Of a DNA stretch of 64,000 nucleotides, positions 23,036-35,036 are shown piece by piece (positions within the stretch are counted from its first letter, which is position 1; the number at the start of each line of letters is the position of its first letter). The notes beneath the pieces were generated by a model. That model ran no database searches. It was not told the DNA's origin and saw only the letters and a program-made list of their open reading frames with translations. Source of the DNA: Polyangiaceae bacterium (lineage in GTDB: Bacteria; Myxococcota_A; Polyangia; Polyangiales; Polyangiaceae). Position numbers and translations under genes: made by a program. Where the stretch lies: assembly GCA_947475525.1 (NCBI GenBank), contig CANJMI010000005.1, positions 124,001-188,000 of the forward strand. The letters run 5' to 3'.

Positions 23036-25282
23036 TCACGGAACCATGTGGGCGCGGAGGATCCGGTCCCCTTCGACGAGCGTCGCCCAAGGGCCCGAAC
23101 TCCGGCCGAGCCACGCGTACTGACCGTCGAGGTGCGGGTGATCGGCGTGCGTGACGAAAAACTGGCTCGAGCCCGTGTCGCGTCCCGCGAGCGCCATTCC
23201 CACAGAGCCGGCCCGAAAGACAACGGGTGCGGTTTCGCACGCCAAAGACGCTCGGCCTGGTGCTCCGCCGAAGCCATCGCTTGTTGGAGAGCCGAGCTGC
23301 GTGACGAACCCCGGCACGACCCGGTGGACGAGCATGCCATCGTAGAACCCGCCTTTCGCCAGCTCGACTATCCGAGTCACCGCGACGGGCGCCAGCGCGG
23401 GATCCAGCTCGAGGATGAGCTCGCCTACGTCACTTTCGAACACGAGCTTGACGGGTGCCCCAACGAGCCGAGACAGTTCGTCCGGCAACGGCAGCCCGGT
23501 ATCGGAGGCGGTGCACACCGATTTTTGATCGCCCCCAAGAATTGCTGCCAGCGCGCGCTCGGCGTGTTGCCGCACGAGCGGGTGCGCCGAGCGGCAGAGA
23601 CGACCTAACGGCTCCCGCGCACCGTCGAGCGCGAGCGCCCCAGCCGCGTCGCTCACGTGCATGATGGCCTCGATATCGCCGCTCGGCTCGAAGGCCTCGA
23701 GCAGGCCTATCAGGGCCTTGCCTACCTGAGGGGCGCCGCTGCGCCGGGTTGCCCGCTTCGGCGTCTTTCCGCGGTGCCTCTCGGGTTCCACGCGCCCGCC
23801 AATGCGGTCAGGGTGCTTCGCGATGACTTCAGCCGCGGCCGCCACAACCCCAGCGCTCTTCGACTCCAAGGCGAGCGCGAGAGGCACTTCGGGGTCGTCC
23901 AATTCGGGATGCTCGCCTATCAACCGAATGGCCGCCGCTCGCGCGAGGACATCGGAACCTTCGGCGTAGCGTTGCCACGCCCGGAGTCGCTTGCTGACAA
24001 GCTGGGTGCCGGGAAGACCGATCGCCATCACCATCGCCCGAGCACCGTAAAAGCCGCTGCCCGCCGCCTGTTTCGAGACCGTGCGGTCGCAATGTGCGAG
24101 CAGGGGATAATCGAAATCTCGCTCGGCGATCACGCGGGACGCAGCGCATCGAAGCATGCTGGTTCGGCGTACGACCGAAGGCGGCGCCTCAACCGCGACC
24201 TCGAGCTTCGCGTAGCGGTCCAGAATCGCGCGCGCGCCGTCGAGGTCGGTTATCGCGTCGAGCGCGGCAACGAGGCCGCCAAATTCCGGACCGACGAGAG
24301 CCGTGGCCTTGATCGGATCGTGCGTGTCCGGCAAGAGCGACGTCAACGCATCACGGAGCGCACGCTGCCCGGACGCGCCGAGCCTGCCAAGCGCACGAGC
24401 CGCCTCGGCCCTCTCGCTCGGGGTCGCCCTACCAACGGCTACAAGCTCGCCCAAGAGCGCGGGCGCCGCCGTTTCATCCGTTCGCCCGAGCGTACGTACC
24501 GCATGAATTCGGTCGACCCCTCCATCCGCCAAACGCGCGACGGCCACCTGGCGCGCACGCTCGGCGACGCTCGGGGGAAGGTGCTTCACTCGCCCGAGCG
24601 GCTGAAGCGCGAGAGCCCAAGGCTTGCTGCTCGCGCTTCCCGCGGCGAGCTCGAGCAACGCCACGCACGTTTCCTCGCGGAGACTTCCTCGCTGCTGCGC
24701 GATGTCTCCGAGCGCAAATACGGCGTCTTCTGCGTTGCGACCGCCTGCCGCCGCCCAATCGAGCAAGGTCTTCTCCGACGTGTCGGAGGCACAGCGCCCG
24801 ATCGCCCGCGCAATCGCGGAGAGCGGCCGGAGCGCTCTGTCAGCGTCATTCCGTTCGTGAAGTCCGACGCCCCGGGCGACGAGAGACGAGACCGTTGCAT
24901 CACGGGCCGATGCGCAGATGTCGCCCAGGCCGTAGGCCGCCCAGGCCACGACCTCGGGGTCGTCATCCGAGAGAGCGGCGAGCAACCGTGGGCGTTCTGC
25001 CGGGGACCGGAGGCGGGCGAGACCCCGTGCCCCCGCGCGGCGCACAGCGAGCTCATGGTCGGTGCCGTCCGCGTCCCGAAATTCTGCGGCGCGACGACTC
25101 AACTCAGCCCCCCTGAGCTCCATTGCGCGCGAGCCGAGCTTGCCAGCATCGGGCGACACCGAGGCGCTTGAAGACGCCAGTTCGTCCGACGACGCACTGC
25201 CACTCGGCCGAGGCTCCACCTCCCGTGGTTGACAACCCGCCGCGAGAACGACGATGGCCACAATCCGCGACGAAGCGCTCAC
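23036..25282 (-). CDS. HEAT-repeat lipoprotein fused to a cyclophilin-type peptidyl-prolyl isomerase
   Basis: 748 residues. Signal MSASSRIVAIVVLAAGC (GTG start) followed by a Ser-rich stalk. Residues about 60-580 are alpha-helical HEAT-like repeats (for example ALSDDDPEVVAWAAYGLGDI, ALESKSAGVVAAAAEVIAKH). The last 170 residues are a cyclophilin domain: GGFYDGMLVHRVVPGFVTQL, SPTSDGFGG and GSSQFFVTHADHPHLDGQYA. The catalytic Arg of HRVVPGF is kept, so peptidyl-prolyl isomerase activity is plausible in the envelope, with HEAT repeats presumably recruiting clients. Confidence 0.9.
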   Translation of the reverse strand: MSASSRIVAIVVLAAGCQPREVEPRPSGSASSDELASSSASVSPDAGKLGSRAMELRGAELSRRAAEFRDADGTDHELAVRRAGARGLARLRSPAERPRLLAALSDDDPEVVAWAAYGLGDICASARDATVSSLVARGVGLHERNDADRALRPLSAIARAIGRCASDTSEKTLLDWAAAGGRNAEDAVFALGDIAQQRGSLREETCVALLELAAGSASSKPWALALQPLGRVKHLPPSVAERARQVAVARLADGGVDRIHAVRTLGRTDETAAPALLGELVAVGRATPSERAEAARALGRLGASGQRALRDALTSLLPDTHDPIKATALVGPEFGGLVAALDAITDLDGARAILDRYAKLEVAVEAPPSVVRRTSMLRCAASRVIAERDFDYPLLAHCDRTVSKQAAGSGFYGARAMVMAIGLPGTQLVSKRLRAWQRYAEGSDVLARAAAIRLIGEHPELDDPEVPLALALESKSAGVVAAAAEVIAKHPDRIGGRVEPERHRGKTPKRATRRSGAPQVGKALIGLLEAFEPSGDIEAIMHVSDAAGALALDGAREPLGRLCRSAHPLVRQHAERALAAILGGDQKSVCTASDTGLPLPDELSRLVGAPVKLVFESDVGELILELDPALAPVAVTRIVELAKGGFYDGMLVHRVVPGFVTQLGSPTSDGFGGAPGRASLACETAPVVFRAGSVGMALAGRDTGSSQFFVTHADHPHLDGQYAWLGRSSGPWATLVEGDRILRAHMVP

Positions 25283-26340: not shown

Positions 26341-26457
26341 GGGCCCAGCGAAGGGCGAGTGGCCTAAAGCATTCTAACTATTGAAATTCATGCGCCGACC
26401 GGCTCCACCACCCCACGGCTCGAACGGGCACCGAACTTGCACCGGCCAGCCGGTCGA

Positions 26458-27558
26458 ATGCCACACGCCAAGCGCCACCGCCAGTCGCTTTCCCAAGTTG
26501 CTCTCGCCGCCGTCCTCTTCACGGCGTGCGCCAAAGCGGGAGCCGGAGACTCTTCCGCACCGTTGGAGACCGGAACTCCAGCAGCCTCCTCCGGCTCGGG
26601 CGATCCGACCTCTGCGGGCGCCGACTCGAACTCATCGGGCAGCACCTCCGGCGGCGTTGGAGGCAATCCGCACACCTCTGTCGGGAGCTCGAGCGTCGGA
26701 GCGGGGAGCGGGGTCGGGGGCGCATCGAGCACCGAGGTCTCAGCGGGAACGAACGCGTCGGTCGGCGTCGGAACCTCGTCCTCGTCGGGCCAAGGCGGGG
26801 CGTCGCCTGGCGATTGCGACCACGACGTGTGTACGGTGGGAGCGGCGCTGAAGTCGAGCTGCGACGCGTGCAGCGCAAGCCTCTGCGCGAACGATCCTTA
26901 TTGCTGCGACACCGCGTGGGACAGCCTGTGCGTCTCGCAGACGAAAACCTACTGCGCGGGCGATCCGTGCGGCCTGGCGGGCTCATCGAGCAGCACAGCA
27001 AGCAGCACGGGCGGCGGCGGCGGCGACGGCGGCGTCCTGGCGGGCGACTTGCTGATTACCGAGATCATGAACGACCCCGCCAAAGTCGACGACGCCAAAG
27101 GCGAGTGGTTCGAGGTCCACAATACAACCGCCTCGCCAATCGACTTGAAGGGTCTCGTCCTTCGCCACCAGCTCAAGTTCGTCGATGCGAATGCCGTCGA
27201 ACCTATCGGTAAATCACTGATCGTTCAGGGAGGTGGGTACGTGGTCCTCGGCAACAACAGCGACCCAACCACCAATGGCGGAGTCAAGGTCGACTACGTT
27301 TTCTCGGTGAAGGTCACGCTCAACAACACCAAGGATTATATCGCGCTCGAGACCTCCGACATGCAAGCGACCACCATCGACGAGGCCTCCTACGACACGG
27401 CGAAACTGAAGCTGACGGGCAAGAGTCGAAACCTCGATCCCGCGTGGATGTCGACACTCGGAAACGACGACGACACGCATTTCTGCGGAGCGAGCTCGCT
27501 CATCGCGAACAGCACGGACTTCGGCACGCCAGGCAAGTCAAACGACGCGTGCAAGTGA
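26458..27558 (+). CDS. Lamin-tail-domain lipoprotein with a Cys-rich module
   Basis: The ATG at 26458 gives a signal ending LFTAC and then a long Ser/Gly/Thr stalk. A Cys-rich segment follows (CDHDVCTVGAALKSSCDACS and CANDPYCCDTAWDSLC), a pattern I recall from other Polyangiales secreted proteins. Another Gly-rich linker leads to a lamin-tail domain starting GDLLITEIMNDPAKVDDAKG, EWFEVHNTTASPIDLKG. Such domains are usually on secreted nucleases or surface proteins; no nuclease is attached here, so a surface adhesive role is inferred. A TTG at 26437 is an alternative start. Confidence 0.82.
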   Translation: MPHAKRHRQSLSQVALAAVLFTACAKAGAGDSSAPLETGTPAASSGSGDPTSAGADSNSSGSTSGGVGGNPHTSVGSSSVGAGSGVGGASSTEVSAGTNASVGVGTSSSSGQGGASPGDCDHDVCTVGAALKSSCDACSASLCANDPYCCDTAWDSLCVSQTKTYCAGDPCGLAGSSSSTASSTGGGGGDGGVLAGDLLITEIMNDPAKVDDAKGEWFEVHNTTASPIDLKGLVLRHQLKFVDANAVEPIGKSLIVQGGGYVVLGNNSDPTTNGGVKVDYVFSVKVTLNNTKDYIALETSDMQATTIDEASYDTAKLKLTGKSRNLDPAWMSTLGNDDDTHFCGASSLIANSTDFGTPGKSNDACK

Positions 27559-27597: not shown

Positions 27598-28461
27598 CTA
27601 GGGCCAATCCGCGTCAGAACCACCGAGCTCGCGCCAGGCCAGCCGCAGCTCTTCCGGAACGGGTGAGACCGCTTCGAGCGCGGGCAGCTCAATTCGGGCG
27701 CAGTGCAGCGCCACGCGTTCGATCGAGACCACGCGACCGTCGGAGGCCACGATGCTTGTGGCTCCGCCGTACAGTCGATCGCCAACAAGCGGCACGCCCG
27801 CACCCGCCGCATGGGCGCGAAGCTGATGCATGCGCCCGGTCTCGGGGGTTAGCTCGAGGAGCAGCGCGCGCGCCCGTCGAATCACGCGAAAATGTGTGCG
27901 CGCCGGCAGTGCATCGGCCCCACCCACTCGCGCGAGGTCACGGCCCGCGCGATCGCGACCTCGCGACAATGCCAGGTTCCAGACCCCGTCGAGGGCAAGG
28001 TCGGCATCTCGCGCGATGCCGAGATAGGTGCGCCGCACGTGTCCCTGTTCGCGCCAGGCTTCAAAGGTTCGACTCGCGGTTCGACCGAGACAACAAGCAA
28101 CCACGCCACTGACCGGCACGTCGAGCCGAGTGGCCGCATGAACGTGACCACCGCTGAGAGAGCGCAAGAGCTCACTCACGACGGAATCCTCGCCTTGCTT
28201 CGTCGTCTCAGTCGGCAGCCCGGCAGGCTTGTCCACGAGGATGACGCCATCGCGCTGCGCGAGAACTCGCAAGTCGCCAGGCCGCGCCTCGCGACGAGGG
28301 TGCAGATCGATGCGGTCGCCGCGTTCAACCGGATCGGTCGGTCCCGCGGGACGTCCGTTCAGGAAGATGCGCGACGCGTCCACATGCGGCAATGCTGCGA
28401 CGACACCTCCGACGGTAGCCGGGTCTCCATCTTGAACGACCCACGTCATCGACGGCTTCAC
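27598..28461 (-). CDS. RluA-family RNA pseudouridine synthase
   Basis: 287 residues. N-terminal S4-like part (GGVVAALPHVDASRIFLNGR), then VILVDKPAGLPTE, the catalytic loop ATRLDVPVSG (the usual H before RLD is T, the catalytic Asp is kept), and GRMHQLRAHAAGAGVPLVGD, all RluA signatures. Expected to isomerise uridine in rRNA or tRNA; which site cannot be predicted. Start overlaps the stop of the PEP-synthase-like gene (ATGA). Confidence 0.9.
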   Translation of the reverse strand: MKPSMTWVVQDGDPATVGGVVAALPHVDASRIFLNGRPAGPTDPVERGDRIDLHPRREARPGDLRVLAQRDGVILVDKPAGLPTETTKQGEDSVVSELLRSLSGGHVHAATRLDVPVSGVVACCLGRTASRTFEAWREQGHVRRTYLGIARDADLALDGVWNLALSRGRDRAGRDLARVGGADALPARTHFRVIRRARALLLELTPETGRMHQLRAHAAGAGVPLVGDRLYGGATSIVASDGRVVSIERVALHCARIELPALEAVSPVPEELRLAWRELGGSDADWP

Positions 28462-31070
28462 GCGCGGGCCGGCCTGTCGAGCCGGTGCACAAGGCCCCGC
28501 TCACCGTCGACGCGCACGCGATCACCGCGCGAAAGCGAAGCCGTCGCGCCCTCGACGCCGAGGACGGCAGGCACTCCAAGCTCGCGAAGCGCCTCGGCGG
28601 CGGGCGAAAGCATGCCGCCGGATTCACAGATGACCGCCCCTACAGCAAAATAACGCGGCAGCATCGCGACATCGAGAGCCGAGGTGACCAACACGGTTTC
28701 CGCGCCGGCACGCTCGGACGCCCGCAGCTCTCCGTCGATGCAAACATTGCCGTCGACGACACCGCTGCTCACGCCAATGCCACGCACCTGCACGTCACTC
28801 GAGAACGGCGCGGCGATGCGAGGCGGGAAGCCAACAAAGCTCAGCGGCGGACCGGGCTCGCTCGCCTCCAGGTGCCGCTCGATTTCATGCATTGCAACCA
28901 CGTGCCGAAGCTCCGGTCGGCCCGTACGAAACGACGCGACGATGCGCGCAAACGAACAGGCGAAGGCTCCACCTGGTGGAAAAGCCGAATCGATGCGCCG
29001 CAGGCGACGATCGGCGTCTCCCACAACCGCACGAAACAAAGCCAACACCCGATAAGCAAGCCTGTCCAAAGTTGCCCGTGCTCGCGCTGTCCTTCGCGAC
29101 CGCTCAACGAGGGACCGCAACGCATTGCGCTCCGCCCATCCAAGGTCGGGTTCATGACGTGCGATCTCCGCGTCAGCCCTCGCTCGGACGCGCTCTTGCG
29201 CCGTCTCGACGCGCGTTCGTGCAGCGCCATCGAACTCGAGCCATGCGCGAATCATCACAAAAATTTCGCGAGGATCCTCGCTCCATCGCGGTCGCTCGAG
29301 ATCGAAGGGTGAGCGTGCCACATCCCCGTAGCTCGATAAGAATTGCCCCAATGCGCCACGAGCAGCGCCATCTGCAAAGTCATCGAGGGAGCGAGGGCTT
29401 CCGGCGAGGCTCGCGAGGGCAGGCTCGTCCGCGCGAAACACGTCGACGACCCGGGCAAACGCGACCGTAAGCGAGGCTCCGAGAGTCGCTCCCGCACCGC
29501 TAAGCGCAATCGCCGCCGTCGCTTCGCTCGCTTCGTGGCCTGCTCGCCGGAGGAGCGCTCGCAACGCGACTTGATGACAGAGCTGCGAAGCTGCCACACC
29601 GGACCAAAGCTCGACTGTGCGTCCAAGCAACTCGTCGATGCTCGACAAAGTCGTCGCGATCCCATCGGTCGGCAGCAACGTCAGATCCATCTCACCGAGA
29701 GCTCGCGCCGAACGCTGCAGCTCACGCTCCATATCGCCAAGCTCGCGGTGGAGGCGAGCCTGCCTCGACAGCAGCGCTGCCCCTTGAACGACTTGGCGCA
29801 ATCGACGAGGCGCGCTGCCGGACCGATGAACGAGTTGGTCGAGAAGCTCCGCGCTCGCGGTTCCCGTGGCGGCAAGCACGTCACTCGCCGTCAACGCGGG
29901 AAGATCGCGTACGGCCGCGGCAAGCGAGTGCAAGCCGAGGTAAGTTCGGCCCCCTGAACTCCAAACGAATTGCCGCGGCTCCTCCGTGGACGCCCCAAGA
30001 GCGTGCAACCCGGCGAGAGTCGCTCGCTCCACCGCGCGGGACAGAACGCCTTGCGACAACGGAGCCCGCGGCCAACGTTCGACGCGACCGCAAAGCACCT
30101 CGAGCCACGCAGAATCACCGTCGCCGTCGCGCGTCCGCCAACGAGGAGAATCGTCGGCCTGAAGGACGGTGAGCATGGGCTCCGGATGCGCCGTAAACGC
30201 AACCGCCACAAGAGCGTCCGCTCCGAGCACGCGTTCGGCAGCCGCGGACAGGTTCTGCAAGAGCTCGAAGCCGCGAGGCGTCAAGGCGGCATGCAGCGGT
30301 CGAAGCGCCTCAGGAACATCGCCACCTCGCCCAAGCGCAACGGGGGCGAGCACGAGGGCCGAACGCCCCGTGTCACCAGCGACCGAAAGCTCGACGCCGA
30401 GCTGCCACGGCGCGCCGGAGTCCGCACGGTGCCGCCCCGTCATGCGGGTCAGCCAGAGCAGGTGATCGTACGAAACAACCGGCTGCAAAAGGATCGCGAC
30501 GGAGAGGTCACGCACGCCGCACTCGGCATAACGACCGACGGCAAGCGAGGCTGCGGCGCTCGCCCAAACACGGCGAATCGCTGCGAGCACGTCAGCCGAA
30601 CGGTCGCAAACAAGCTCGGTATGCAAGTACCGCGCGGCATCGGTCGCGCGCTCGCCCGTCGCGACGAGACTCGGACGCACGGCAATACCGGCGGAGGGGC
30701 GAACGGCAAACGCATCCCACCACGCTTCGACCGCAGCCACGAGATCCTCGGGCAGCGTCGCGGCGAGGAGTTCTTCGACGGCCCGAGCACAATGCTCCTC
30801 GCCCTCGGGAGTACCGGCGAGTTTAGCGAGCGAGCGAAGGTCGTGTTTTTGCGGCAGGACCGCCGCAGCGATTGCGTCGAAGTGGGTCGAATCGACAACC
30901 CAGGAGTCCGGAATCGCCACGCCGGCGGCGCGAAGGGAAGCGTGGGCCATGGCTTTGCGGCCAATGCGCTTTGAAGCATCGCTCCGCGTCGCAGCCTCGG
31001 AGAGCGGACGAACGATGCGCGCGTAGTCGCTTGTTCGCACCGAGACACGCCCATCACTCGGACCCGCCAT
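28458..31070 (-). CDS. PEP synthase-like protein with degenerate phosphohistidine domain
   Basis: 870 residues. The N-terminal part resembles the ATP-grasp domain of PEP synthase, PPDK and rifampin phosphotransferase: RIGRKAMAHASLRAAGVAIP, IAVRPSLVATGERATDAARY and VAILLQPVVSYDHLLWL. The C-terminal part resembles the PEP-utilising swivel domain: ISSGVVDGNV-like GVSSGVVDGNV and ICESGGMLSPAAEALRELGV then PAVLGV. In active enzymes the third element reads GGxxSHAA with the catalytic phosphohistidine; here it is LSPAA, with Pro823 in place of His. Catalysis by phosphohistidine transfer is therefore unlikely. Real role unknown. Sits inside the gap-pgk-tpiA-secG run. Confidence 0.78.
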   Translation of the reverse strand: MAGPSDGRVSVRTSDYARIVRPLSEAATRSDASKRIGRKAMAHASLRAAGVAIPDSWVVDSTHFDAIAAAVLPQKHDLRSLAKLAGTPEGEEHCARAVEELLAATLPEDLVAAVEAWWDAFAVRPSAGIAVRPSLVATGERATDAARYLHTELVCDRSADVLAAIRRVWASAAASLAVGRYAECGVRDLSVAILLQPVVSYDHLLWLTRMTGRHRADSGAPWQLGVELSVAGDTGRSALVLAPVALGRGGDVPEALRPLHAALTPRGFELLQNLSAAAERVLGADALVAVAFTAHPEPMLTVLQADDSPRWRTRDGDGDSAWLEVLCGRVERWPRAPLSQGVLSRAVERATLAGLHALGASTEEPRQFVWSSGGRTYLGLHSLAAAVRDLPALTASDVLAATGTASAELLDQLVHRSGSAPRRLRQVVQGAALLSRQARLHRELGDMERELQRSARALGEMDLTLLPTDGIATTLSSIDELLGRTVELWSGVAASQLCHQVALRALLRRAGHEASEATAAIALSGAGATLGASLTVAFARVVDVFRADEPALASLAGSPRSLDDFADGAARGALGQFLSSYGDVARSPFDLERPRWSEDPREIFVMIRAWLEFDGAARTRVETAQERVRARADAEIARHEPDLGWAERNALRSLVERSRRTARARATLDRLAYRVLALFRAVVGDADRRLRRIDSAFPPGGAFACSFARIVASFRTGRPELRHVVAMHEIERHLEASEPGPPLSFVGFPPRIAAPFSSDVQVRGIGVSSGVVDGNVCIDGELRASERAGAETVLVTSALDVAMLPRYFAVGAVICESGGMLSPAAEALRELGVPAVLGVEGATASLSRGDRVRVDGERGLVHRLDRPARA

Positions 31071-31078
31071 CGTTTACC

Positions 31079-31591
31079 TCACCAGCTCAAAACAACCTGC
31101 GTCTCGACTCGCCTCACAGCGTCGGCGCGGCTCCACGACTGCTGGATGGCCTCGTCGACATCGATCGTGCCCAAGGCCGAGAGCGCACAGCGGCTCATCG
31201 CCGGATCGAGACCACCGGGATCGATGACCCGCAAATGCGTGCTGCCTGGCTCGGCAATCAGGCGCAGGACCAGTTTTCCCGTGCTGCTCGTCTGACAGCG
31301 CTCGAGCGCGGCGTGGGCGGGAGCGAACAGCGCCTCTGCCTCCAACGGGGCGATGCCCGCAAGCTCGCTTATTTGAAGCGAAGGGCCGACCTTCACGGGC
31401 GGTGCCGCGGGGAATAGCGCCGCGGTTGGCCTCTCGTCAACCTCCGACGTGGCCACGGGTGCCGCGCGCAACACCGTGGACGGCTGGGCTGGCACAACCT
31501 CGGCAACCACGGGCCGCGACGGGCGCGTGACTTCCCAACACGCGGAGAGCAGTGCCGGCAAAATCAGTCCCGACACTGCAGCGGCGTTCAT
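31079..31591 (-). CDS. AgmX/PglI C-terminal-like lipoprotein
   Basis: 170 residues. Signal MNAAAVSGLILPALLSAC, then a Pro/Val/Ala stalk. The C-terminal 70 residues (LERCQTSSTGKLVLRLIAEP, VIDPGGLDPAMSRCALSAL) match the pattern of the AgmX/PglI C-terminal domain of myxobacterial envelope proteins, with its Cys pair. Its start overlaps the secG stop (ATGA). Confidence 0.65.
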   Translation of the reverse strand: MNAAAVSGLILPALLSACWEVTRPSRPVVAEVVPAQPSTVLRAAPVATSEVDERPTAALFPAAPPVKVGPSLQISELAGIAPLEAEALFAPAHAALERCQTSSTGKLVLRLIAEPGSTHLRVIDPGGLDPAMSRCALSALGTIDVDEAIQQSWSRADAVRRVETQVVLSW

Positions 31592-31863
31592 CGCCCTTGC
31601 TGAGTTGCGTCGAAAGCCTTCATGTCGCGGTCACCCGCCGACGACAGGTAGGCGAGGAGCATGCTCGTCACCATGAACGCAGCCGCCATGACGCTCGTGA
31701 GCCGCGTCATGAGGTTCGCTGAGCCTCGGCCGCCGAACACCTGTGTCGAGCCCGCGCCGAGCGAGCCGGAGAGACCACCACCCCGCGACTGTTGCACCAG
31801 GATCACGGTGACCAGGAACAAACAGTTGATGATGTGGAAAACGTTAATAATCGAGTGAAGCAT
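31588..31863 (-). CDS. secG: Protein translocase subunit SecG
   Basis: 91 residues with two membrane helices (NVFHIINCLFLVTVILVQQS and RLTSVMAAAFMVTSMLLAYL) joined by the conserved GGGLSGSLGAGSTQVFGGRG loop, diagnostic of SecG. It belongs to the SecYEG channel. Located after tpiA, an arrangement seen in many bacteria. Confidence 0.96.
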   Translation of the reverse strand: MLHSIINVFHIINCLFLVTVILVQQSRGGGLSGSLGAGSTQVFGGRGSANLMTRLTSVMAAAFMVTSMLLAYLSSAGDRDMKAFDATQQGR

Positions 31864-31888: not shown

Positions 31889-32740
31889 CTACTCCGATTT
31901 GCCCTGTCGTGCCAGTTTGGCTGCGATTTCTATGATCTTTCCGAAACCGTCGGCTTCGAGCGAAGCGCCGCCAACGAGCGCCCCATCGATGTCCTTCTGC
32001 GCGAGCAAGCCCTCGGCGTTGTTCGCTTTGACGCTGCCTCCGTAGAGGATTCGCGTCTGGTTAGCGAAGTCCCGATCGACGCGCGAGAGCAACTCCCGAA
32101 TCGCCGCGTGGATCTCTTGCGCATCCTCCGGGCTCGCAACCTTGCCCGTCCCAATCGCCCACACAGGTTCGTATGCGACGACGCCGTCGCCCCCCGACTT
32201 CGCGAGCTCCGCCGCGAACGCGCCTATCTGCCGCTCGATCACCTCGAGGGTCTGGCCCGCCTCGCGCTGGTCGAGCGTCTCGCCGACGCACACGATGCAT
32301 TTAAGGCCCCCGGCGTTCGCCGCCACGACCTTCTTCAGCACCGCTTCATCGGACTCGCCGAAGAGCTGACGTCGTTCGCTGTGGCCAATGATCGCCCAAG
32401 TTGCCCCCGCGATCCGGAGCATCGGTGCGCTGACCTCACCGGTAAATGCGCCCGATTCTTCGAAAAACAAATTCTGCGCGGCAACCGCGACGTCGCTCTT
32501 CTTGTTGTAGAGTTCGTTTGCCACTGCCGCGATTGCGGTGAAGGGCGGAGCGACGACGACCTCTGTTTCCTCGTTGTTTGCCGCGACGCGCGCGATGCTG
32601 AGCGCGAGGTCGCAACCATCGGTCCCGCCGGCGTTCATCTTCCAGTTACCCGCGATCATCAGGCGGCGCCCCGGGTTCGTGGCGGCGGGGATCACGTCTG
32701 CGGGGAGGGCCTCGGCCTCGTGCGTTTCCGACTCGCTCAT
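31889..32740 (-). CDS. tpiA: Triosephosphate isomerase
   Basis: Interconverts dihydroxyacetone phosphate and glyceraldehyde 3-phosphate. Motifs: GNWKMN, catalytic His in [14 protein letters not shown], catalytic Glu in [13 protein letters not shown], and [11 protein letters not shown]. Has an unusual N-terminal extension of about 27 residues before [10 protein letters not shown]. The extension's ATG overlaps the pgk stop (ATGA), supporting this start; an internal ATG (32659) would give a standard-length enzyme. Confidence 0.97.
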
Positions 32741-33996
32741 GGTCTCGCTCCTCTGCGCAGCGCCTCGATACCGGGCATCCGCTTTCCTTCAATGAACTCC
32801 AGCGACGCGCCGCCACCGGTCGATAAATGATCAAACCCGGCCGCGATGTCACCGCCTGCCTGATTCACAGCCGCCGCGCTATCACCACCGCCTACCACCG
32901 TGAAGCCGGCGATGCCGCTCATCGCCCGCGCGAGCTCAAAGGTGCCCGTGGCAAATGCCGGCGACTCGAACAACCCCATCGGCCCGTTCCAAAAAACGGT
33001 CTTCGCGCCACGAAGCACAGCCGAGTAGGCGGCGATGGTCTTCGGACCGATGTCGAGCGCCATCGTCTCGGCAGGCACGGCGGTGACCGCGACGACTTGG
33101 CCTTCCACCACATCGATCCCCGTTCCGACGACAACATCGACCGGCAACAGAAGCTTCACACCCGCCGTGTCGGCTTTTTGAAGCAACGTTCGCGCGAGGG
33201 CGAGCTTGTCGCCTTCGACGAGGCTCCGTTGCATGTTAAGGCCTTGCGCCGCGAGGAACGTGTTCGCCATCGCTCCACCGATGCAAATCGACGTGCACCG
33301 CGCGAGCAGCGCTTCGATCACAGCGATTTTGTCGCTGACCTTCGCGCCGCCGAGAACGGCCACGTAGGGGCGCGCCGGCGCTCCGACCAGACGCGCCAAC
33401 GCGGCGAGCTCACTGGCGACGAGCAATCCCATCCCGCGATCTTTAACGAGGCGAGGAAGCGCGTCGACCGAGGCATGCGCCCGATGCATCGCGCCGAACG
33501 CATCATCGACGTAGACATCGCAGAGCTCGGCGAGAGCGCGCGCAAACGTCTCGTCATTTTTCTCCTCCCCCTGGTGAAAGCGGAGGTTTTCAAGCAAACA
33601 GATCTGCGGCCCGCCGCGCAACCCCGCGCTCGCGACGCGCAGATCGTGGATGACCTTTTTCGGGGCATCGCCGATACAGTCTTCGGGGAGATGCACCTCC
33701 CACCCCGTGAGCTCGGCTAGTCGCAAGCCCACGGGCTCGAGCGAGAGGTTCTCGTCGTGGCCTTTCGGTCGCCCGAGGTGGGATGCGAGAATGACCTTCG
33801 CGCCCGCCTCTACAGCATAGCGAATCGTCGGCAGCGCGGCGCGAATGCGCGAGTCATCGGTAATGGCTCCCGTCTTCTTGTCGAGCGGGACGTTGAAGTC
33901 GACGCGGATGAACACGCGCTTGTTCGCGAGCCACTCGCCCTCCTCGAGCGGCCCTTTCTGAAGTTGTTCGATACGGACAATGTCGTCGAAGGCCAC
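32737..33996 (-). CDS. pgk: Phosphoglycerate kinase
   Basis: Glycolytic ATP-forming kinase. Motifs: [53 protein letters not shown] and the closing [14 protein letters not shown]. The GTG at 33996 is preceded by AAAGAGGGAG, a good ribosome binding site, and begins 20 bases after gap. The frame is open further upstream over the gap gene but without family sequence. About 419 residues. Confidence 0.97.
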
Positions 33997-34016
33997 GCGC
34001 GCTCCCTCTTTTCCGC

Positions 34017-35036
34017 TCAGAGCTTGGCGGCAACGATTTGGGCCAAATCGATCATACGATTCGAAAAGCCCCACTCGTTGTCGTACCAAGAGAACACCTT
34101 CACGAGGGTCTTCTGAAGCACCTGGGTCATTGTGGCATCGAAGCTGCTCGAGGCCGGGTTGCCGATGAAGTCTCCGCTGACCAGCTCGATGTCGACGTAG
34201 TCGAGAACGTTCGACATCGGGCCTTCGGAAGCCGCCTTCTTCATCGCCGCGTTGAGCTCGGCGACCGTAACGGGCTTCTCGGTCTCCACGGTGAGGTCGA
34301 CGAGCGAGACGTCGGTCGTCGGAACGCGCACGGCGATGCCTTCAAACTTCCCCTCGAGCTCGGGAATGATCGCGTAGATCGCCTTCGCTGCGCCAGTCGA
34401 GGAAGGCACCATGTTGGCCGCGGCAGCACGCGAGCGGCGCAGGTCGCCTTTGCGGTGCGGCACGTCGAGGAGCGATTGGTCGTTCGTGTACGCGTGGACG
34501 GTCGTCATCATGCCGCGCTTGATGCCGAAGTTGTCGAGAATCACCTTGGCGATCGGTGCAAGGCAGTTCGTCGTGCACGAGCCGTTCGAGAGAACGTGAT
34601 GCTTCGTCGCATCGTAGAGGTGGTCGTTGCAGCCGATGACGACGGTGAGGTCATCACCCTTGGCCGGCGCACTTACGATGACTTTTTTGGCACCGGCTTC
34701 CACGTGCTTCGCCGCCGACTCGCGCGTCGTGAAGAGGCCCGTGCACTCAAGCACGATGTCCACGCCGAGCTCCTTCCACGGGAGCTTCGCGGGGTCCTTC
34801 TCGGCAATCACCTTGATGGGCTTGCCGCCGACGTTGATGAGACCGTCGCCCGCCTCAACGGTCGATGCAAACGTGCGATGCACCGAATCGTACTTGAGCA
34901 GATGGGCGAGCGTCTTCGGATCCGTGAGATCGTTTATGGCCACGAGCTCGACGTCTGTGACGCCGCGGTCATAGAGGGCACGGGTGACACAGCGTCCAAT
35001 ACGTCCGAAGCCGTTGATCGCAATTTTCACAGCCAT
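34017..35036 (-). CDS. gap: Glyceraldehyde-3-phosphate dehydrogenase, type I
   Basis: NAD-dependent glycolytic enzyme. NAD-binding [17 protein letters not shown], catalytic Cys in [16 protein letters not shown], and the C-terminal [15 protein letters not shown] are all clear. 339 residues. First gene of the gap-pgk-tpiA-secG series; a promoter candidate lies upstream. Confidence 0.98.

Follow-up and report, generated by a model that had tools for sequence, protein, structure and literature searches.

Can a protein of the phosphoenolpyruvate (PEP) synthase type that has lost its catalytic histidine still be of use to the cell that keeps it? The question is raised by a gene at positions 28458-31070 (minus strand, ATG start) of a 64,000-nucleotide stretch of a Polyangiaceae bacterium genome (assembly GCA_947475525.1, contig CANJMI010000005.1, positions 124,001 to 188,000), which is referred to here as the window. 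The open reading frame (ORF) encodes an 870-residue protein resembling rifampin phosphotransferase (RPH) and PEP synthase, referred to as PEPSL, which was characterized from the ORF, Pfam matches, an AlphaFold2 (AF2) model, and fold matches. We assign a probability of roughly 0.7 to the reading that PEPSL has the RPH fold but is a pseudoenzyme, retained for non-catalytic binding or as a scaffold and perhaps in partnership with Rlu, an RluA-family pseudouridine synthase encoded by the adjacent gene.

The original prediction, made from the sequence alone, was that the His of the GGxxSHAA motif had been replaced by Pro in the C-terminal swivel domain (residues 760-863, 28482-28793, minus strand as for all parts of this gene; PF00391 and fold match). 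The motif reads ESGGMLSPAAEALRELG (ESGGMLSPAA, with the core GGMLSPAA). For comparison, homologues were collected as the best match in each relative's genome; 53 of 59 genomes were matched, and a search with the family matched 91 of 108, from which only a part (40 further regions) was taken in. After exclusion of 12 of the 60 first-fetched regions (L081-L092, comprising paralogues, second hits, and hitless regions), the alignment consisted of 89 proteins, the window's included, with four fragments (G020, G042, G072, and G126) retained in the counts and left uninterpreted. Pro823 (codon CCC, 28602-28604) fell exactly in the catalytic-His column, which held 72 His, 10 Pro, 2 Leu, 2 Ser, 1 Gln, 1 Ala, and 1 gap (16 rows without His), and the predicted replacement was thus confirmed. 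Pro occupies this column in all five members of the window's genus (G000-G004). As it was also found in the separate assemblies G001 and G003, an assembly error was ruled out. A functional His nearby, which the prediction had named as one finding that would count against it, was rejected for the window protein. G002 and G004 carry a His one position before the Pro (LHP and VHP), where the window protein has Ser, and no substitute was found in its swivel domain, the sole His of which (His862) is unconserved among the ten members of the clade to which it belongs (G000-G004, G066-G067, and G085-G087; the ten-member clade). In the related protein HpeH, the swivel His is described as essential, the H581Q variant having no detectable activity (PMC12167813).

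The further claim that the ATP-grasp features are kept was correct in part. The N-terminal part of the domain (residues 35-209, 30444-30968; Pfam and residue columns) retains Lys39 and Arg132, the counterparts of the ATP-phosphate residues Lys22 and Arg117 of RPH-Lm, and Gln304 is retained as well. The C-terminal part (residues 210-312, 30135-30443) is eroded, as the PVVDG segment is missing, the D and E have been lost from DVEFA and the Arg from LQxRP (LQARP), leaving no DxE or QxRP feature, and residues 210-261 have low model confidence (pLDDT). Six signature residues were tested (Lys39, Arg132, Glu291, Gln304, Arg306, and His823, in window numbering), and all six were intact in 60 of the 89 homologues. 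In the ten-member clade, Glu291, Arg306, Glu588, Glu666, and His823 were each retained in none of the ten, Arg132 was retained in all, and Lys39 in seven, the three losses falling among the five genus members. The substrate-site pair Arg666-Glu667 of RPH-Lm was equated with R665-A666 of the window protein by motif rather than by superposition; on this basis, the Glu of the pair was present in 59 of the 60 intact homologues versus 0/10 clade members. The loss is therefore greater than first stated, as it extends beyond the His to the second half of the ATP-grasp domain and to conserved residues of the substrate site. In RPH-Lm, altering Lys22, Arg117, Arg666, or Glu667 is reported to abolish rifampin inactivation, and Glu297Ala is reported to stay active (PMC4844700); thus, the change at Glu291 alone is no proof of a dead enzyme.

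The fold is retained in the structural model. The AF2 model of the window protein (45 alignment rows) had a mean pLDDT of 80.9 and a pTM of 0.83, with values below 50 over residues 210-261, whereas an intact relative modelled with the same 45 proteins (P0002 from G028, locus L195) had block pLDDT values of 76-90 over residues 201-280 and formed strands at 216-223, 236-240, 246-250, 256-261, and 264-269. The window model matched RPH-Lm 5hv1 in Foldseek (E 3.9e-30) and RPH-Lm 5fbt in VIA-align (Z 31.1, 627 residues aligned, rmsd 8.2, 16% identity over the aligned residues). Weaker matches, among them D-Ala ligases (Z about 10), stem from the ATP-grasp fold that these proteins share. Given the match to RPH and the disorder at 210-261 beside an ordered intact control, the modelled architecture is RPH-like, and the structural loss appears to be concentrated in the nucleotide-clamping part.

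By both sequence and fold, RPH (RPH-Lm, PDB 5fbs, 5fbt, and 5hv1) was the best match among known systems, with the same order of ATP-grasp, middle substrate domain, and C-terminal swivel. Unlike RPH, PEPSL has no catalytic His (His825 in RPH-Lm), has an eroded ATP-grasp half, and has lost the substrate-site Glu assigned by motif. We do not claim PEPSL as a member of the rifampin phosphotransferases, because the defining catalytic His is missing. Pfam detected PPDK_N at residues 35-252 (E 9.3e-10, covering only model positions 3-210 of 328) and a PEP-utilizers domain at residues 791-859 (E 5.7e-15), and PF01326 and PF00391 were the only Pfam domains at E values up to 10. NCBIfam returned sub-threshold matches only, to PEP synthase, prodigiosin ligase, and rifamycin phosphotransferase, all of which missed the curated cut-offs (87.4 bits versus 999 for rph and 79.8 versus 739.75 for TIGR01418, the PpsA family). 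PpsA and the prodigiosin ligase PigC/RedH, the best of these sub-threshold matches, share the ATP-grasp and swivel domains with PEPSL; unlike in PpsA, no PEP/pyruvate-binding barrel was found in PEPSL by Pfam at E up to 10. The position of the His domain, described as central in PEP synthase and C-terminal in RPH (PMC4844700), also distinguishes the two types.

HpeHI and the other two-component dikinases belong to the same superfamily, and HpeH alone, consisting of swivel and substrate domains, is reported to still move phosphate between substrates (PMC12167813). Unlike PEPSL, HpeH keeps its His (His581), and its nearer parallel is a set of six relatives, G031 (L048), G074 (L124), G088 (L138), G036 (L050), G064 (L144), and G024 (L051), in which the His, Glu588, and Glu666 were kept in all six and Lys39 and Arg132 in none. 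These His-only relatives may represent a half-enzyme stage that would need a phosphate donor in trans; no further PF01326 match, as a candidate donor, was found in the G031 genome. In the window genome (G000, 98.9% complete), PEPSL was the sole match to PF00391 and PF01326. The genome thus appears to be without enzyme I of the phosphotransferase system (PTS), PPDK, and PpsA, and PF01326 revealed no separate ATP-grasp donor in it.

The history of the losses was examined on a tree of 63 rows, made up of 25 rows showing residue losses, 32 of the 60 intact rows, and 6 paralogues; superfamily paralogues served as the root, and the six tested columns were masked. One group inside the intact family (SH-aLRT 99) comprised eleven His-less rows from four genera, the ten-member clade and G027, with Pro, Ser, or Leu at the His column. 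Parsimony gave four changes of His state on this tree, in which the long rows G079, G072, and G010 were unsurely placed. A single origin of all His losses was rejected by the approximately unbiased (AU) test (p 0.0024; LG+G4 without mixture) on a reduced set of 40 rows that contained 16 intact rows and 3 paralogues and excluded the long or broken rows G079, G072, G010, and G027; thus, these alignments indicate that the His was lost at least twice.

The gene is under purifying selection despite its lost catalytic residues. Between the window and G001, the nonsynonymous divergence (dN) of PEPSL was 0.264 and the synonymous divergence (dS) was 1.545 (about 1.5), which is near saturation, so that the dN/dS ratio is rough. 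Regional dN for this pair ranged from 0.144 (residues 561-690) to 0.414 (ATP-grasp region). The values for rlu (0.153), tpiA (0.080), and pgk (0.077) were lower, and PEPSL is therefore the fastest among the neighbouring genes with a usable alignment. When the clade was set against 588 intact pairs with a comparable overall identity, its conservation was lower in residues 126-420 and in the swivel but higher in residues 16-125 and 421-758, indicating that constraint has shifted from the catalytic parts to the scaffold. Within the middle (substrate) domain, the first part (residues 313-420, 29811-30134) is fast-changing in the His-less clade and has lost the ANVGEALPG motif, and the helical middle domain with its linker (residues 421-758, 28797-29810) is well conserved there. 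A single long ORF (853-928 codons stop to stop) was found in all ten clade members, and the G027 homologue was split into two overlapping ORFs. A scan of the genome contigs with P0001 confirmed no relative, and alignment A1 held no stretch conserved enough to scan with.

The most widespread neighbour of the family is Rlu. In the window, it is encoded at 27598-28461 (minus strand, 287 residues, GTG start), with a 4-nt overlap with the PEPSL stop. It scored 67.5 bits against PF00849 (cut-off 26.8) and below the cut-off of TIGR00005 (98 versus 192.7). The RLD motif, which we take to hold the catalytic Asp of RluA-family synthases, is kept, and its Asp was present in all 73 aligned Rlu partners. 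Rlu lay on the same strand within 300 nt directly downstream of the homologue in 70 of the 89 loci; it was found at 1.1-1.4 kb in three, three ended at the contig end, and none was detected by script in 13, in two of which (G041 and G058) a separate match search placed Rlu directly behind the gene. A start codon giving the 4-nt overlap was available in 43 loci. Rlu was within 300 nt in 14 of the 16 His-less rows, being absent there in G027, while G070 stops at the contig end. Among 80 named loci, 63 had Rlu within 300 nt, two had it farther away, 11 had none, and four ended at the contig end; these loci were found by the TELGGP or EALPG patterns and are therefore biased to intact members. Of 27 loci scanned, Rlu stood beside the homologue in only 1 of 23 outside the window's order and in 3 of 4 within it (one at 542 nt). 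A small conserved protein (about 120 residues, IDGIGK near its start) was observed directly before rlu where PEPSL is absent (L277, L278, L281, and L284), and upstream of PEPSL elsewhere (L049); it looks as though PEPSL had been cleanly removed from between two genes that were themselves retained.

These data suggest the following course. The ancestors of PEPSL would have resembled most of its relatives today, which look like complete ATP-dependent dikinases: the ATP-grasp domain would phosphorylate the swivel His, and the middle domain would hold the substrate that then receives the phosphate. The window lineage exchanged the phospho-carrier His for Pro, and both the nucleotide clamp of its ATP-grasp domain and conserved acidic residues of the substrate site were lost, the former by erosion; with these losses, the two-step phosphotransfer should not run. 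PEPSL would then have been retained for non-catalytic binding or scaffolding. Sequence and model show residue losses, a retained fold, an intact ORF, and purifying selection, and the non-catalytic role would be exercised through the N-terminal lid and the helical middle domain, the sites of strongest constraint. The RluA-type synthase with the overlapping gene is the most plausible candidate partner. The suggestion in the original prediction of a repurposed protein that does not transfer phosphate is well supported by the loss of the His in 5/5 genus members, the loss of other catalytic positions, and the selected ORF; its suggestion of a nucleotide-binding protein is open to doubt, since part of the ATP cleft's C-terminal lobe is absent or disordered. 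A broader proposal, which we offer as decidedly speculative, is that, throughout the order, the RPH-type dikinase belongs with the RluA-type synthase to a single module for RNA modification, the dikinase phosphorylating or sensing a ligand that gates pseudouridylation. The dikinase of the window clade would then be an allosteric, non-catalytic subunit, and the His-only relatives a halfway stage taking phosphate from another protein. The literature searches made turned up no paper on a pseudoenzyme in the PEP-synthase/RPH superfamily, none joining rifampin phosphotransferase with pseudouridine, and none joining phosphoenolpyruvate synthase with pseudouridine synthase in myxococci. The locus is of interest because catalysis appears to have been lost at least twice and the gene yet kept, with apparent intermediates alive and the gene overlapping that of a pseudouridine synthase in many members of the order; the homologues thus form a natural series in which one can ask what use a swivelling dikinase has apart from its chemistry.

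Several observations weigh against a non-catalytic protein working with Rlu. Besides the roughness of dN/dS, the window protein still has Lys39, Arg132, and Gln304, and, since RPH-Lm Glu297Ala stayed active, some nucleotide binding is possible. The pair is separable: among 21 genomes in which the thresholds applied gave no PEPSL, 10 carry an Rlu match of at least 100 bits with no PEPSL-like ORF beside it, and in seven tested genomes that do have PEPSL (G017, G114, G116, G033, G035, G100, and G032) no match to Rlu came up to 100 bits. The two are therefore not obligate partners, and the partnership is only a lead. An undetected degenerate PEPSL beside the lone rlu was rejected, as the family hidden Markov model found none at E up to 10 in 11 loci (the 10 PEPSL-less genomes and G111). 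The retained residues also bear on the idea that PEPSL is still an enzyme, its chemistry being independent of phospho-His and run on the remaining Lys39/Arg132 half-site; we consider this improbable, as Lys39 is gone in three of the five genus members, and the model shows disorder in the C-terminal part of the ATP cleft, where the acidic residues have also been lost. Slow gene decay, with catalysis lost first and the protein heading to deletion without an important present function, would account for the graded series of complete members, His-only members without the ATP-grasp residues (six genomes), members lacking both, and loci where PEPSL is absent and Rlu kept, as well as for the split ORFs of G027. 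It is unlikely in view of the long ORF in all ten clade members, a dN well below dS, the region-specific constraint, and the overlap with rlu, which is retained in most of the ten.

A role as a regulator or sensor of glycolysis had also been proposed, from the placement of PEPSL within a gap-pgk-tpiA-secG run. This placement was slightly off. PEPSL lies behind the run, in the same direction and with tight spacing, and is separated from secG (31588-31863) by a 170-residue ORF (31079-31591) that has no Pfam match and was matched in G003 and not in G001, G002, or G004. The run continues with tpiA (31889-32740), pgk (32737-34089, start codon uncertain, its ORF overlapping gap), and gap (34017-35036), all on the minus strand. 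The linkage holds in all five genus members; however, gap, pgk, tpiA, secG, or accA was found near the homologue in only these 5 of the 89 loci and in 0/84 others, including the sister genera with the His loss, although some contigs were short. A glycolytic link was thus rejected as a general feature, and a glycolytic role for PEPSL is most improbable.

Two other genes near PEPSL were noted. The ORF at 23036-25282 (minus strand) is predicted to encode HEAT repeats with a C-terminal cyclophilin-type prolyl isomerase, and it is also found near the homologue in G003 and G085. The ORF at 26437-27558 (plus strand, opposite to its neighbours) encodes a protein that has a lamin-tail domain (PF00932) and a stretch rich in Ser and Gly.

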